Source: Candidatus Gastranaerophilales bacterium
GTDB lineage: Bacteria > Cyanobacteriota > Vampirovibrionia > Gastranaerophilales > Gastranaerophilaceae
NCBI GenBank assembly: GCA_947624685.1
Contig: CANQLJ010000018.1
Span: 1-34,346 of the forward strand
Direction of reading: 5' to 3'
DNA length: 34,346 bases
Below, piece by piece: positions 3,900 through 9,919 of the stretch. The position numbers and the translations under genes were made by a program. The notes below the pieces were generated by a model, which did no database searches, was not told the origin of the DNA, and was given only the letters and a program-made list of their open reading frames with translations. Numbering within the stretch: position 1 is the first letter of the stretch; the number at the start of each line of letters is the position of its first letter.

Positions 3900-3973
3900 C
3901 TTTATTAAGGCAATTATTTTTGTTCTTTTGTTTTATTATCCTTGTCAGTTGTTTAAGGTGTGAAAAAAAATTA

Positions 3974-5011
3974 ATGAAACTTTTGAGCAAAAAATACTAT
4001 GGTTACTCAAATTTAAACAAAAATTTTTCATCAAAAAAGCTTCCGCTTGATCGCTCAAGCGTAAAAAACATTGAACAATATGACAAAAGAGAATATCCGC
4101 TCGAACAGTATTTGTCATATTTTACTTATATTCGAGAAAATGACGAATTTAAGGATGTTTTTAAAAAATACATTAAATACAAAAATTCTAACCAAAGACT
4201 CACCAAAGAAAAATTTGACGAGATTTACAAAAATTATCCCATGATGTGCGATATGGCGTATGACGAAACACAAAGCGAAGAAATGCTTTGTGCTTCTCCA
4301 AGTTCGTGCGCTAATGCTGCCGTTACTTTGAAAAATCATTTTGATAAAAAATATGGTATTGATGGCTATAAAATAATAAGTATCGGGACAGAACCTTCTA
4401 TTATATGTGAAATTATGAAATTAATGGGGGCAGATACCGTGATGCTTCCAATATCAGGGCTGAAAAACCCCGACATTTCAAAATACGATTGGAAAAGCGA
4501 TGAGCCTTTTGAAAGCTCTATAAAAGACAATATCTACATTGCGCTTAATTATTTAATTAAAAACGGCGTTATAAATACCTTTGATAAAAAATTTATACTG
4601 GTAGATTTTGCCTATTCCGGCGCCACAATTAAAGTAATGCATAATTTTTTAAAATATTTAATACAGATTGATGAAGATAAAATCATTGATTGCTCTTTAA
4701 TTGACGCCCTTCGAGCACTTCAAAACGAGGAAGAATCTTTTGTTGATGAAGTAGATGTGGATATGATTGAAGAAGATATGATGCACTCTGATATTGCCGA
4801 TTGCTGCAATGTTCCTCATTTTAATATTAATGATTTTTATAACGAAAACGCTTATGGGGACAATTATGTGAGCTCTAAAAATAAAACCGAACAGGAAGTA
4901 TTCGATGAATTTGATAAATACAATAGAACCGACGCATGGGTTTATTTGCTTGCTTCCATGTCGTTTGTACAAAAAATTTTAGATAAAAAAATGCGTCACG
5001 AATTACCATGA
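3974..5011 (+). CDS. Uncharacterised protein with a phosphoribosyltransferase-like motif
   Basis: Predicted soluble protein of 345 residues that I do not recognise. The frame is open further upstream to a TTG at 3920; I prefer the ATG at 3974 because the upstream extension depends on TTG and is hydrophobic and Cys-rich (it ends in an LVSC lipobox-like sequence, so a lipoprotein start cannot be ruled out). The middle has IISIGTEPSIICEIMKLMGA and later FILVDFAYSGATIK; a hydrophobic strand ending in D followed by SGATIK resembles the PRPP-binding loop of type I phosphoribosyltransferases, but the usual acidic pair is only partly present. A very acidic stretch follows (near EEESFVDEVDVDMIEEDMM). 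It stands alone between divergent ilvC and a convergent slipin gene. Function unknown. Confidence 0.75.
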   Translation: MKLLSKKYYGYSNLNKNFSSKKLPLDRSSVKNIEQYDKREYPLEQYLSYFTYIRENDEFKDVFKKYIKYKNSNQRLTKEKFDEIYKNYPMMCDMAYDETQSEEMLCASPSSCANAAVTLKNHFDKKYGIDGYKIISIGTEPSIICEIMKLMGADTVMLPISGLKNPDISKYDWKSDEPFESSIKDNIYIALNYLIKNGVINTFDKKFILVDFAYSGATIKVMHNFLKYLIQIDEDKIIDCSLIDALRALQNEEESFVDEVDVDMIEEDMMHSDIADCCNVPHFNINDFYNENAYGDNYVSSKNKTEQEVFDEFDKYNRTDAWVYLLASMSFVQKILDKKMRHELP

Positions 5012-5017
5012 CGCATT
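4990..5017 (+). terminator. Hairpin overlapping the stop codon
   Basis: AATGCGTCA (4990-4998) pairs perfectly with TGACGCATT (5009-5017) around a 10-base loop. The stop codon TGA (5009-5011) begins the 3' arm, so the structure lies half inside the coding region. Only a short TATT follows, so it may be a weak terminator or an mRNA 3'-end stabiliser. Confidence 0.45.
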
Positions 5018-5219: not shown

Positions 5220-6188
5220 TTATTTATTTAGCATCTGTTTAATGCCGTCAATTGATGATAAAATGCCCGTTGCTTCATAAGGCATATAAATCACCTTGTT
5301 GTCTTGGCCTTTTGAGATACCTTCCAATGTTTCTAAATATTTCATCGCAATTAAATACTTATCAGGCTGGCCTTGGTTATTGAAAGCCTCAGCTATTCTT
5401 CTGATTGCTTCTTTTTCGGCATCGGCTTCAACAAGTCTTGCTTGAGCTTCACCTTGTGCTTTTAAAATTTCGGCTTCTTTTAGCCCTTGAGCTTTATTGA
5501 TTGCTGCTTCTTTTTCCCCTTCCGCTTTTAATATTGCCGATTTTTTAAGCCCTTCAGCTTCTAAGATTGCCGCACGTCTGTCACGTTCCGCTTTCATTTG
5601 TTTTTCCATTGATGTTTGAATATCAACGGGCGGGATAATATCTTGTAATTCGACCCTGTTTACCTTAACACCCCATTTATTTGTTGCTTCATCTAAGATA
5701 GAGCGAAGTTCGACGTTGATTTTATCTCTTGAAACAAGCGTTTCATCTAAATCCAGCTGCCCGACTAAATTTCTCAACGTCGTTTGAGTAAGTTTTTCAA
5801 TTGCATCAGGCAGGTTTTGAACTTCATAAACCGCCGATTTAGGATCAACTATCTGGAAATATAAAAGAGCGTTAATGCTAATTGTCGCGTTATCTTTAGT
5901 AATTACCGATTGGCGAGGAAAATCATAGACAGCTTCTCTCATATCTATTCTATGGCGAATAACAGTGCCGCTATAGGTTTGGCCGTCAAAAGTTCTTTGA
6001 ACTGTTTTCCAATACACTCCTCTTTGGGTATCAATAATCGGACAAATCCAATGAAAACCCGCATCGAGCGTTTTATGGTATTTACCTAATCTTTCAACAA
6101 TCACAACTTCCGCTTGTTTAACAATTATTGCGCCTTTTATAATTAAAATAATTGCAAAAACAAATAATACTAAAATTGCGCCGAACAT
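5220..6188 (-). CDS. SPFH/stomatin-like membrane protein (paraslipin)
   Basis: 322-residue membrane-anchored scaffold of the SPFH (stomatin/prohibitin/flotillin/HflK) superfamily. One N-terminal membrane segment (residues about 4-22, GAILVLFVFAIILIIKGAI) is followed by the SPFH core: VVIVERLGKYHKTLDAGFHWICP, VYDFPRQSVITKDNATISINALL, and the VELQDIIPP segment. Then comes a long coiled coil with AEG/AQG repeats roughly 11 residues apart (about 205-260), and a C-terminus containing YLETLEGISKG, typical of the slipin group. The family organises membrane microdomains; a specific function here is not known. The ATG has a strong AAAGGAGG ribosome binding site and follows nfeD by 17 bases, the standard NfeD-slipin operon. 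Confidence 0.93.
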   Translation of the reverse strand: MFGAILVLFVFAIILIIKGAIIVKQAEVVIVERLGKYHKTLDAGFHWICPIIDTQRGVYWKTVQRTFDGQTYSGTVIRHRIDMREAVYDFPRQSVITKDNATISINALLYFQIVDPKSAVYEVQNLPDAIEKLTQTTLRNLVGQLDLDETLVSRDKINVELRSILDEATNKWGVKVNRVELQDIIPPVDIQTSMEKQMKAERDRRAAILEAEGLKKSAILKAEGEKEAAINKAQGLKEAEILKAQGEAQARLVEADAEKEAIRRIAEAFNNQGQPDKYLIAMKYLETLEGISKGQDNKVIYMPYEATGILSSIDGIKQMLNK

Positions 6189-6205: not shown

Positions 6206-6625
6206 TTATTGCTTAACAACTTTTAAAATAATACCTTCATGGTCTGTAATTTTAACGTTTTCGCCGTTTTCGATGACATTATCATCGGCACTTCTTGCTT
6301 GCCATCTTTCATCATAAATACTTATAAAGCCGCTGTTTTTGTCGATTCTGTCTACTGCTTTAGCTGTTTTTCCGATGTATTTTGATTTCATGCCCGTTTC
6401 CATTTTAATGTCGCTTGATTTTTTAATCAAAATCGGCCTCAATGTAAATACCAGAATTATTGATAAAAAACAAAAACTCGATATTAAAACGTATATATCG
6501 TTTGTGAAAAACGATAATATCGCGACAAAAACGGACGCCAAAGCAAAATTAAGAAAAAACATCGTAGGCGTGAACATTTCAATGATTAAAAAAACTAATC
6601 CTATCGCTAAAATTGTATACCACAT
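6206..6625 (-). CDS. NfeD family membrane protein
   Basis: 139-residue partner of the slipin downstream. The first ~75 residues form two to four membrane segments (WYTILAIGLVFLIIEMFTPTMFFLNFALASVFVAIL, then YVLISSFCFLSIILVFTLRPIL). After a KSSDIKMETGMKSKYIGKTAKAV linker comes an OB-fold domain with DERWQARS and an ENGENVKITDHEGIILKV ending, both hallmarks of the short NfeD form, which lacks the serine protease domain. The ATG is at 6625-6623; its GGAGGAG ribosome binding site overlaps the 3' arm of a perfect 11-bp hairpin, so translation or read-through may be regulated. Confidence 0.9.
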   Translation of the reverse strand: MWYTILAIGLVFLIIEMFTPTMFFLNFALASVFVAILSFFTNDIYVLISSFCFLSIILVFTLRPILIKKSSDIKMETGMKSKYIGKTAKAVDRIDKNSGFISIYDERWQARSADDNVIENGENVKITDHEGIILKVVKQ

Positions 6626-6664
6626 AAAAACTCCTCCATAATTTTATATTATAGAGGAGTTTTT
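6626..6664 (-). terminator. Terminator-like hairpin sequestering the nfeD ribosome binding site
   Basis: On the minus strand AAAAACTCCTC (6664-6654) and GAGGAGTTTTT (6636-6626) form a perfect 11-bp stem with a 17-base AT-rich loop. The five T residues end directly at the nfeD ATG. It has the form of an intrinsic terminator, and the GGAGGAG that nfeD needs for initiation lies in and next to the 3' arm, so it could act at transcription, at translation, or both. It may also end transcripts of the mutS2-alkD operon. Confidence 0.65.
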
Positions 6665-6690
6665 AAAATAAATCACATTTTTATTGTATT

Positions 6691-6747
6691 TTATACGTAA
6701 TTTTTTATCCAAATGCTTAAAATGAAGTCAAATTCAATTTTATTCAT
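6691..6747 (-). CDS. Candidate 18-residue leader peptide before nfeD
   Basis: A short open frame, MNKIEFDFILSIWIKNYV then TAA, starts at an ATG preceded by AAGGA four bases upstream. It sits 27 bases before the terminator-like hairpin that leads into nfeD, and a TGCTATAAA extended -10 box lies upstream. Position and ribosome binding site suggest a leader peptide; the peptide has four Ile and one Trp but no run of a single amino acid, so which signal it would sense is unclear. Could be chance. Confidence 0.3.
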   Translation of the reverse strand: MNKIEFDFILSIWIKNYV

Positions 6748-6773
6748 AATATCCTTCGCTTTCTTAAATTATC

Positions 6774-6782
6774 TTTATAGCA
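6774..6782 (-). promoter_or_regulatory. Candidate extended -10 promoter of the nfeD-slipin transcript
   Basis: On the minus strand TGC directly precedes TATAAA (6782-6774), the TGN extended -10 form. No good -35 box is seen. A start near 6767 would place the leader ORF 20 bases downstream and the hairpin about 100 bases downstream. Apart from this promoter, the leader ORF and the hairpin, the 217-base gap 6626-6842 shows nothing else. Confidence 0.35.
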
Positions 6783-6842: not shown

Positions 6843-7529
6843 TTAAATTGTTACATTTCTTAATATTTTAAGCTCGTCTTTCTGTTCTTTGTTGAGTCTT
6901 AATGATTCCCTGGCTTTTGTTATACCTTTATTATAGACGAAATTATGGATTTTATTGTTTTTTATAAAATTAATCGTTTTATTATAATCTTTTACAAAAC
7001 AAATTGAAAGACACCATGCCGCAGCCATTTTTGCGTAATATTTGTCGTTATTAAATATTTTTATTTTATCAAGTACATAATCAATGTCATAATCGATGTA
7101 ATAAAGCGTCAAAATGACATAATAAAACCTTAGATTAAATTCTCTGTCTGAATTAACATAATCTTTTAAAAAAACTTTAAAATCATCAAGATTATCTTTA
7201 ATTACTTTTAAGTTTGAACAAAAACAATCACAAATTGACCAATTATTTATTTTTTTAATGAATTTTTTTATGTATTTTAATTTTTCACAATAATCAATTT
7301 TAATGTATCCGATAATTAGCCCTTCAATTAGCGTTAGTTCAAAAAATTCATCGTCATTTTCTTTTAAATACGTTTTCCAATTTTCTTTTGAGATATTTTT
7401 AGCAATTTTTCTTAATTTTGGTATTTGAACACCGATTAGGTTATTTATGTTAGGCAGAAGCGAACAGGAAAAATTTTTATATTTTTCATCGCTTAATTTA
7501 AAAAGTTCTTTTTTTATTTTTTCTATCAT
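6843..7529 (-). CDS. DNA alkylation repair protein, AlkD-like
   Basis: 228-residue all-helical protein of the AlkC/AlkD family (HEAT-like repeats that grip DNA and release bulky or positively charged alkylated purines). Family features visible: GVQIPKLRKIAK near residue 32, NNWSICDCFCSNLK near 93-106, DREFNLRFYYVIL near 128-140, MAAAWCLSICFVKD near 170-183, and the C-terminal KARESLRLN segment. Length matches AlkD. The ATG overlaps the mutS2 stop as ATGA, so the two repair proteins are translationally coupled. The sequence is very rich in Lys, Ile and Asn, in line with the local AT content. Confidence 0.85.
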   Translation of the reverse strand: MIEKIKKELFKLSDEKYKNFSCSLLPNINNLIGVQIPKLRKIAKNISKENWKTYLKENDDEFFELTLIEGLIIGYIKIDYCEKLKYIKKFIKKINNWSICDCFCSNLKVIKDNLDDFKVFLKDYVNSDREFNLRFYYVILTLYYIDYDIDYVLDKIKIFNNDKYYAKMAAAWCLSICFVKDYNKTINFIKNNKIHNFVYNKGITKARESLRLNKEQKDELKILRNVTI

Positions 7530-9868
7530 ACCAAATCCACTATAACTACGCCCTCAGAACCTTCATCCATATTGCCGTAGCGAAATTTTGCAACATAGGG
7601 GGATGTTTCAAGATAATTTGCAATCGCTTTTTTTAAAGCGCCCGTACCTAGCCCATGGATTATTGTTATTTGATTTAAGCCTCTTAAATTTGCGCTATCG
7701 AGCTTTTTATCGACATAATCAATCGCTTCATCGGCTCTCATTCCTCTTACATCGAGCCGTGATAATAAATTATCTTCATAATCAAAATTAACGCTGACTT
7801 TTTTAAGATGATTTTGAACCTTTTTATCGGTATAAGCTAAATCATTTAGCTTTACTTTTGATTTTATGTTTCCGATTCGAACAGTGACAAACCCTTTTTT
7901 ATCAGGAAGACTATCTAAAATTACCACTTGATTTAATCTTTTAATTAAGACATTTTGCCCGATTTTAAGGTTATTTATATCGAGATTTTGATACTTTTGG
8001 CTCAATTCATCATCGTTTTTTGAAAACTCTTGTCTTATTGCGTTTTCGATTCGATTTAATCTGTTATAGCTTCGAAGAGCGATTTTGATTGTTTTTTCTT
8101 TTCTTATCTCATCAACCGTCTGTTTAATTTCATCTCTTGCGTTTTCAAGCTCAGATTGAAATTTCTTTTTAAAATTTTGCAGAGATTTTTTCTTTTGCTT
8201 GTTTAATTCTTCAAGTTTTTTATCGTATTCATCTTTAAATTTCTTTGCTTCATCGAGGGCTATTTGAGTGTCATTTTGTTTTTGGATTAAATTAAGATTG
8301 GTTTTTTCAATTTTATTTACGATTTTTAATTCCTCGCTCTGTTCGTTTTTATAGAGTTCTTTTGCTCTTTTGATTATATTTTCGTTTAATCCTATTGTTT
8401 TTGATATATCAATAGCGTTAGATGAGCCCGATAAACCGTAAATTAACTTATATTTAGGTTTTAGAGTAATATTATCAAATAGAACCGTCGCGTTTTCAAA
8501 ATAATTATCGACGAATTTAAGATTTTTTAATTCGCTAAGGTGTGTTGTAACTATACTTTGAATGTTTCTTTCTCTTAAATTTTCTAATATTGCCCAAGAA
8601 AGCTTGCTTGCTTCGTTTGGGTCGGTGCCTGAACCCAATTCATCAAGTAAAATTAAAGAATCCTCGTTTGCGCTATCTATAATATCGGATATATTTTTCA
8701 TATGAGCGCAAAAAGTTGATAAACCTAATTCCAAGTTTTGTTCCGTTGAAATGTCGCAAAAAATGTTTTTATATGGGTAAATATTAGCTCCCAACGCGGG
8801 AATATGCATAGCGGCTTTTGTCATTAAAACCATTAACCCGACGGTTTTTAGGCAGACTGTTTTTCCGCCCGTGTTAGAGCCTGTTATTAAAAGGCAATTA
8901 AAATCTTTTCCCAAAATAAAATCATTTTCAACTATATCAATTCCTTTATTTATAAGCAGAGGGTGGCGCATCGCTTGAATATCGATGATTTTATCGTTGT
9001 TTAATTGGGCGGAAGTTGAATGAGAAAATATTGAATATTTTGCTTTTGCAAAAATTATATCAAGCCTGGTGAGGATTTTTTGGTCTTTAATTAAATCATC
9101 TTTGATTAATCTGAATTTTTCGCTGAATTGAGCTAATATTCTTAAAATTTCATTTTGAATGTCCAGTTCGATTTTTCTTATTTTGTTATTTAAGGGAATG
9201 AGTTTATTCGGTTCTATAAAATAGGTTAAATTTGTGTTTGAAACGTCATGGACGATACCTTGGACTTTGTTTTTTGAACTTGCTTTAATTTGAAAAACAG
9301 GACGATTGTTTCTTGTGGTAACTATATTTTCTTGAAGATGACAAGAAAAATGAGAGTCATTTAAGAGGTTATTTATCTCATTTTTTAAAATTTCTTTATT
9401 ATCTTTTAAGCTCATATTAAGAGCCTTTAGTGTTGGCGTTACGTCGTCTTTTAAATTTAGCTCTTTATCAAAAGAGCTAAATATTTCATCTTCAAGCTCT
9501 TTATTCAAATAGAAATTATCGGCGATTTTATTTAAGTTTTGAGCGTAATCAAATTTTAAAATAAATGTTCTTATTTCTCTTGAAATTTTAAGTATTGTCG
9601 CTAAATTATGCAATTCAAAAGCATCAAAATTATGATTTTTAAAAATTTCTTTAATGTCTTTAATATCGACTAAAATCGGCTTTTGATTGGGGTTGTCATC
9701 AATTAATTTTTTTGCTTCATCAACAAGAGTCAATTCATATTCGATTTTTTTAATGTCATCAAATATATCTAAATTTCTGCATTTTTCTTTAGCTAAAGCG
9801 CTTGTTGAATAAGAGCTTAAGATATTTAATACTTTATCAAATTCGATTTGTTGGTGGTGTTTGTTCAT
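7526..9868 (-). CDS. mutS2: MutS2 family ATPase with C-terminal Smr domain
   Basis: 780-residue MutS2. Order of parts: MutS core helices (1-300); ABC-type ATPase with Walker A GSNTGGKTV (about 330-338), Walker B LILLDELGSGTDP (about 400-412) and VTTHLSELK; a long charged coiled coil (about 500-610); a KOW-like strand region (about 630-690); and an Smr nuclease domain with LDVRGMR (about 705) and HGLGTGAL (about 740). MutS2 does not do mismatch repair; known roles are suppression of recombination and rescue of collided ribosomes. The ATG has no Shine-Dalgarno at the right distance: only 8 bases (AAAAAATA) separate it from the T-run of the gpmI terminator, so expression must come from read-through or from a promoter inside gpmI or the hairpin. 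Confidence 0.95.
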   Translation of the reverse strand: MNKHHQQIEFDKVLNILSSYSTSALAKEKCRNLDIFDDIKKIEYELTLVDEAKKLIDDNPNQKPILVDIKDIKEIFKNHNFDAFELHNLATILKISREIRTFILKFDYAQNLNKIADNFYLNKELEDEIFSSFDKELNLKDDVTPTLKALNMSLKDNKEILKNEINNLLNDSHFSCHLQENIVTTRNNRPVFQIKASSKNKVQGIVHDVSNTNLTYFIEPNKLIPLNNKIRKIELDIQNEILRILAQFSEKFRLIKDDLIKDQKILTRLDIIFAKAKYSIFSHSTSAQLNNDKIIDIQAMRHPLLINKGIDIVENDFILGKDFNCLLITGSNTGGKTVCLKTVGLMVLMTKAAMHIPALGANIYPYKNIFCDISTEQNLELGLSTFCAHMKNISDIIDSANEDSLILLDELGSGTDPNEASKLSWAILENLRERNIQSIVTTHLSELKNLKFVDNYFENATVLFDNITLKPKYKLIYGLSGSSNAIDISKTIGLNENIIKRAKELYKNEQSEELKIVNKIEKTNLNLIQKQNDTQIALDEAKKFKDEYDKKLEELNKQKKKSLQNFKKKFQSELENARDEIKQTVDEIRKEKTIKIALRSYNRLNRIENAIRQEFSKNDDELSQKYQNLDINNLKIGQNVLIKRLNQVVILDSLPDKKGFVTVRIGNIKSKVKLNDLAYTDKKVQNHLKKVSVNFDYEDNLLSRLDVRGMRADEAIDYVDKKLDSANLRGLNQITIIHGLGTGALKKAIANYLETSPYVAKFRYGNMDEGSEGVVIVDLV

Positions 9869-9876
9869 ATTTTTTT

Positions 9877-9919
9877 AAAAAATATTCTTCCTCTCTTTTA
9901 AAAACGAGAGGAAGAATAT
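9877..9919 (-). terminator. Strong intrinsic terminator after gpmI, abutting mutS2
   Basis: On the minus strand ATATTCTTCCTCTC (9919-9906) pairs perfectly over 14 bp with GAGAGGAAGAATAT (9895-9882); the loop is 10 bases and TTTTT follows (9881-9877). The hairpin starts 11 bases after the gpmI stop and its T-run ends 8 bases before the mutS2 start. Confidence 0.88.

Follow-up and report, generated by a model that had tools for sequence, protein, structure and literature searches.

In the window (the whole stretch of DNA that was analysed, 34,346 nucleotides), the hairpin in front of nfeD is probably the terminator of the mutS2-alkD operon and, on read-through RNA, a mask over the nfeD Shine-Dalgarno sequence (SD), wrapped around nfeD's own promoter. 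That nfeD RNA starts at this promoter, and that RNA from upstream ends at the hairpin or goes untranslated, we infer from the sequence and its predicted folds. The layout of hairpin plus promoter is a known kind of arrangement and not a new leader-peptide switch, and we are most likely dealing with an unusually clean, species-specific hairpin that combines a terminator, a read-through SD mask and an embedded promoter.

The hairpin between alkD and nfeD

The host genome of the window comprises 2.0 Mb in 92 contigs, and the named genomes closest to it are metagenome-assembled ones of Candidatus Gastranaerophilales. The minus-strand gene series of the window runs gpmI, mutS2, an alkD-like gene, nfeD and slipin, with 217 nt between the alkD stop and nfeD. 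The relevant features are as follows.

7526..9868, minus strand: mutS2 (MutS_V, MSSS, Smr)
6843..7529, minus strand: alkD-like DNA alkylation repair protein, the gene upstream of nfeD (PF08713)
6774..6782, minus strand: extended -10-like box TGCTATAAA, a possible but unsupported distal promoter
6691..6747, minus strand: 18-codon ORF MNKIEFDFILSIWIKNYV, ATG to TAA, with AAGGA at 6756-6752 and no counterpart in relatives
6676-6671, minus strand: weak -35 GTGATT, three of six matches, 17-nt spacer to TATAAT
6625..6665, minus strand: hairpin, with 5' arm 6665-6648, 5-nt loop 6647-6643 and 3' arm 6642-6625
6648..6653, minus strand: perfect TATAAT within the hairpin, the putative -10 box of nfeD, 22 nt from the ATG
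6641..6642, minus strand: predicted transcription start, 6-7 nt past the -10; mRNA 5'-ATTATGGAGGAGTTTTTATG, without the 5' arm
6637-6633, minus strand: nfeD SD GGAGG, within the 3' arm of the hairpin, 7 nt from the ATG
6206..6625, minus strand: nfeD, NfeD-like C-terminal domain (PF01957)
5220..6188, minus strand: slipin / stomatin-like, Band_7 (PF01145)

Convergent with slipin lies an ORF of 363 aa (3920-5011, plus strand) without a Pfam match, the 3' end of which overlaps a 12-bp terminator-like hairpin (4990-5017). The gpmI stop is followed by a long hairpin, ATATTCTTCCTCTC/GAGAGGAAGAATAT (9882-9919, minus strand), and the 13 nt between the end of this hairpin and the mutS2 ATG leave no space for a promoter; mutS2 would depend either on read-through from upstream or on a start within or before that hairpin.

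The hairpin before nfeD had been described in an earlier sequence-only reading as a perfect 11-bp stem. It is real but larger, with 18 consecutive pairs, one of them G-U, and a G-C core of CTCCTC/GAGGAG. As that reading had stated, the 3' arm carries the nfeD ribosome binding site and the T5/U5 run finishes at the nfeD ATG (6625). A 71-nt piece containing the hairpin folds with a dG of -23.4 kcal/mol (z -6.9), which none of 200 shuffles equalled, and in 412 kb of the same genome, where a simple rule devised for the present analysis predicted 391 gene starts, no other start has so strong a fold in its preceding 50 nt. The hairpin was missing from the list returned by a simple scan, and an Rfam search gave no RNA family above the gathering threshold. 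A G-C core stem followed immediately by U5 is the form of an intrinsic terminator, and the alkD-nfeD gap holds no other strong fold, which supports the fallback suggestion that the hairpin terminates the mutS2-alkD operon. The terminator-like, RBS-masking character that had been ascribed to it is supported as well. We propose that it serves as the mutS2-alkD terminator and as an SD mask on longer RNAs; its strength as a terminator is uncertain, as the run counts only five Us and these are paired to an A-run.

A putative nfeD promoter inside the hairpin

The perfect TATAAT at 6653-6648, inside the hairpin, had been passed over by the sequence-only reading. Such a box ends 6-32 nt before the nfeD ATG at 11 of 23 genus loci (window included), against 1.9 expected from shuffles (300 runs, maximum 8), and at several further genus loci it lies slightly farther from the ATG. 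It is present also at loci directly behind alkD (L046, L048). A promoter close to the ATG of nfeD is thus common to the genus, and the TATAAT of the window, albeit with a weak -35, sits at the genus-typical position.

Because the box lies inside the hairpin, the nfeD mRNA would begin in the loop or the 3' arm and lack the 5' arm; from the position of the -10 we place the putative start at 6641/6642. The sequence-only reading had held that a transcription start between hairpin and nfeD would speak against its proposal, and this objection now applies in a modified, predicted form, with the start inside the hairpin. The predicted probability that the nfeD SD is unpaired is 0.57 for RNA from 6641/6642 and 0.0002 for RNAs starting upstream of 6665. 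Taken together with the terminator form and the lack of a second strong fold in the gap, these values indicate that mutS2-alkD RNA should either end at the hairpin or stay mute for nfeD. The extended -10 proposed earlier is present in the sequence (TGCTATAAA, 6782-6774), and RNA from this box would, according to the predicted fold, carry a masked nfeD SD.

We therefore suggest a model in which nfeD-slipin would be transcribed from its own sigma-70-type promoter with the -10 TATAAT at 6653-6648, and in which a single hairpin would cover both the -10 and the SD along with the predicted start between them. Whether it arrives from mutS2-alkD or starts at some other point upstream of 6665, RNA would fold the hairpin and either terminate at the U-run or, if read through, keep the nfeD SD in the stem and leave it untranslated, whereas RNA from the embedded promoter would begin in the loop or 3' arm, lack the 5' arm and expose the SD. 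The net effect of the element would be to insulate nfeD from its upstream operon.

Comparison with genus relatives

The comparison set consisted of 22 genus relatives with NfeD proteins 41-56% identical to that of the window. The hairpin was found in none of them (0/22); the same pre-nfeD region gives folds of -0.8 to -9.4 in the relatives and -22.0 in the window. Likewise, the 18-codon ORF has no counterpart in the 22 relatives. In nine relatives alkD is directly upstream of nfeD with a gap of 41-68 nt, compared with 217 nt in the window, placing ORF and hairpin of the window in species-specific sequence, and when the gap was searched as DNA across the genus, it returned scattered AT-rich matches only. 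As the hairpin is confined to the window species in this comparison with 22 relatives, selection on it is unproven, and the palindrome may have arisen around a promoter by evolutionary accident.

At two relative loci (L038, L049) a separate terminator-like hairpin is followed by TATAAT and then nfeD, as judged by eye; terminator and promoter are thus separate there and fused in the window. Four others (L052, L054, L056, L057) form a subgroup with TTGCAA-like / TAGACT promoter-like boxes upstream of nfeD, where some 8-10 nt separate the end of the boxes from the ATG and a clear SD is lacking; judging from these boxes, nfeD may be nearly leaderless at these loci.

Alternative explanations

A simpler account, which we regard as unlikely but deserving of weight, is that the hairpin is only the intrinsic terminator of mutS2-alkD, situated beside nfeD in a compact genome, and that SD masking is incidental and without regulatory effect. 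Stems of at least 12 pairs are about ten times commoner in this genome than in shuffles (8.7 vs 0.9 per 100 kb), as terminators predict, and a similar hairpin follows gpmI just ahead of mutS2. However, termination needs no SD in the 3' arm, and strong SD-masking folds are in excess in the genome: across 805 kb (about 770 kb of stretches from the same genome plus the window), nine of 420 SD-bearing genes have an SD-masking fold of -16 kcal/mol or lower, against 1.25 expected from 20 shuffles (maximum 3), although some of these folds are gene overlaps within coding sequence, so that the excess is not all regulatory.

The sequence-only reading had favoured the layout of attenuation, in which ribosomes on the 18-codon ORF would set whether the terminator and RBS mask forms. 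A promoter-like box, an SD, the ORF and the hairpin do follow one another in a way that fits this idea, the ORF with its own AAGGA is present as described, and the peptide has no run of a single amino acid, as had been noted. Yet the comparison of upstream regions that had been suggested, with lack of conservation counting against the proposal, detected neither ORF nor hairpin in the 22 relatives. Only 4 nt separate the AAGGA from the start codon of the ORF, and in shuffled versions of the 217-nt gap an ATG ORF of at least 18 codons with an SD of at least 4 bases arises in 2.35% of cases, or in 6.15% with any start codon; since these criteria were chosen after the fact, the ORF is not clearly beyond chance. 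Its stop lies 25 nt short of the stem, and a genus-typical promoter lies downstream of it. When the leader was folded with the 3' arm blocked, no alternative pairing of the 5' arm that could act as an antiterminator was found: the G-C part of the 5' arm remained unpaired, and the best match that the leader offers to the arm amounts to six A-U/G-U pairs. A conserved leader ORF with a usable SD and regulatory codons was not found among the window and its relatives. We therefore rejected leader-ORF attenuation, which we hold to be very improbable, on the grounds of missing conservation, missing antiterminator and distance between ORF and stem, and the ORF is probably not a functional leader.

Repression of nfeD by a dimeric regulator bound to the palindrome over the -10 appears equally far-fetched: the dyad is centred on the promoter, but the exact form AACTCCTC-N5..30-GAGGAGTT is found once in the genome, on which ground a repeat element or operator was rejected, the stem, with its wobble pair, is fully paired in minus-strand RNA only, and the T-run fits an RNA function.

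Relation to known systems

The combined reading of terminator, SD mask and embedded promoter has its closest likeness in phage T4. The RBS of T4 gene e (lysozyme), soc, 49 and I-TevI is hidden in early read-through RNAs, and that of gene e is freed in RNAs from late promoters just upstream; in this established case, a late promoter lies in the DNA encoding the 5' strand of the hairpin (PMC3014915). As in gene e, nfeD is preceded by a stable hairpin whose 3' arm includes the SD and which is predicted to mask it in longer RNAs. The putative -10, at its genus-typical place but with a weak -35, falls within the DNA for the 5' arm, and RNA from the predicted start would lack that arm. Unlike gene e, nfeD is chromosomal, has a sigma-70-type box and no known temporal switch, its hairpin is also terminator-like, and the case is a prediction from sequence and folds.

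The nearest known short-ORF system is Salmonella mgtQ-mgtB, in which translation of a short intergenic ORF that overlaps alternative stem-loops controls an RBS-masking structure (PMC8092293). Both loci have a short ORF upstream of an SD-masking stem, whereas the ORF before nfeD is 25 nt from the stem and unconserved and no alternative stem was found.

In IS10 and IS50, RNA folding hides the transposase RBS in transcripts that enter from outside. The protection proposed for nfeD is of this type, in that only longer RNAs would form the stem that guards against transcription from outside, although there is no mobile element at the nfeD locus.

A literature search found no transcription study for the Gastranaerophilales gut lineage. 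If confirmed, the arrangement would be a chromosomal, non-phage case, from uncultured gut bacteria, of a promoter-spanning hairpin that silences read-through RNA, and a warning against inferring operons or leader peptides where gene order and hairpins are the only evidence.

SD-masking hairpins elsewhere

In the 40% of the genome sampled, the fused layout, with the SD in the 3' arm and UUUUU before the AUG, occurs ahead of nfeD, a ferritin-like gene and a gene for 88 aa. The two further hairpins are as follows.

L103:4406-4468, plus strand: hairpin with 3'-arm SD, then TTTTTATG, preceding the ferritin-like gene
L094:12218-12280, plus strand: hairpin with 3'-arm SD, then TTTTTATG, preceding the 88-aa gene

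It is doubtful that hairpins fusing terminator and SD, in some cases around a promoter, serve this lineage as a general guard against translation of downstream genes on read-through RNA. No excess of SD masks was seen in 200 kb each of two relatives, the mask of the ferritin-like gene is absent in five relatives, and across the genome TATAAT shows no association with SD masking (17/58 vs 108/362 genes); such general use is therefore possible, though not established. One relative (G008) carries a comparable hairpin that masks the SD of an rpiB-like gene, the function of which was assigned from sequence; the loop of this hairpin is AT-rich and resembles a -10 box.

L120, offset 10419 of the reverse complement, minus strand: SD-masking hairpin of G008, preceding the rpiB-like gene
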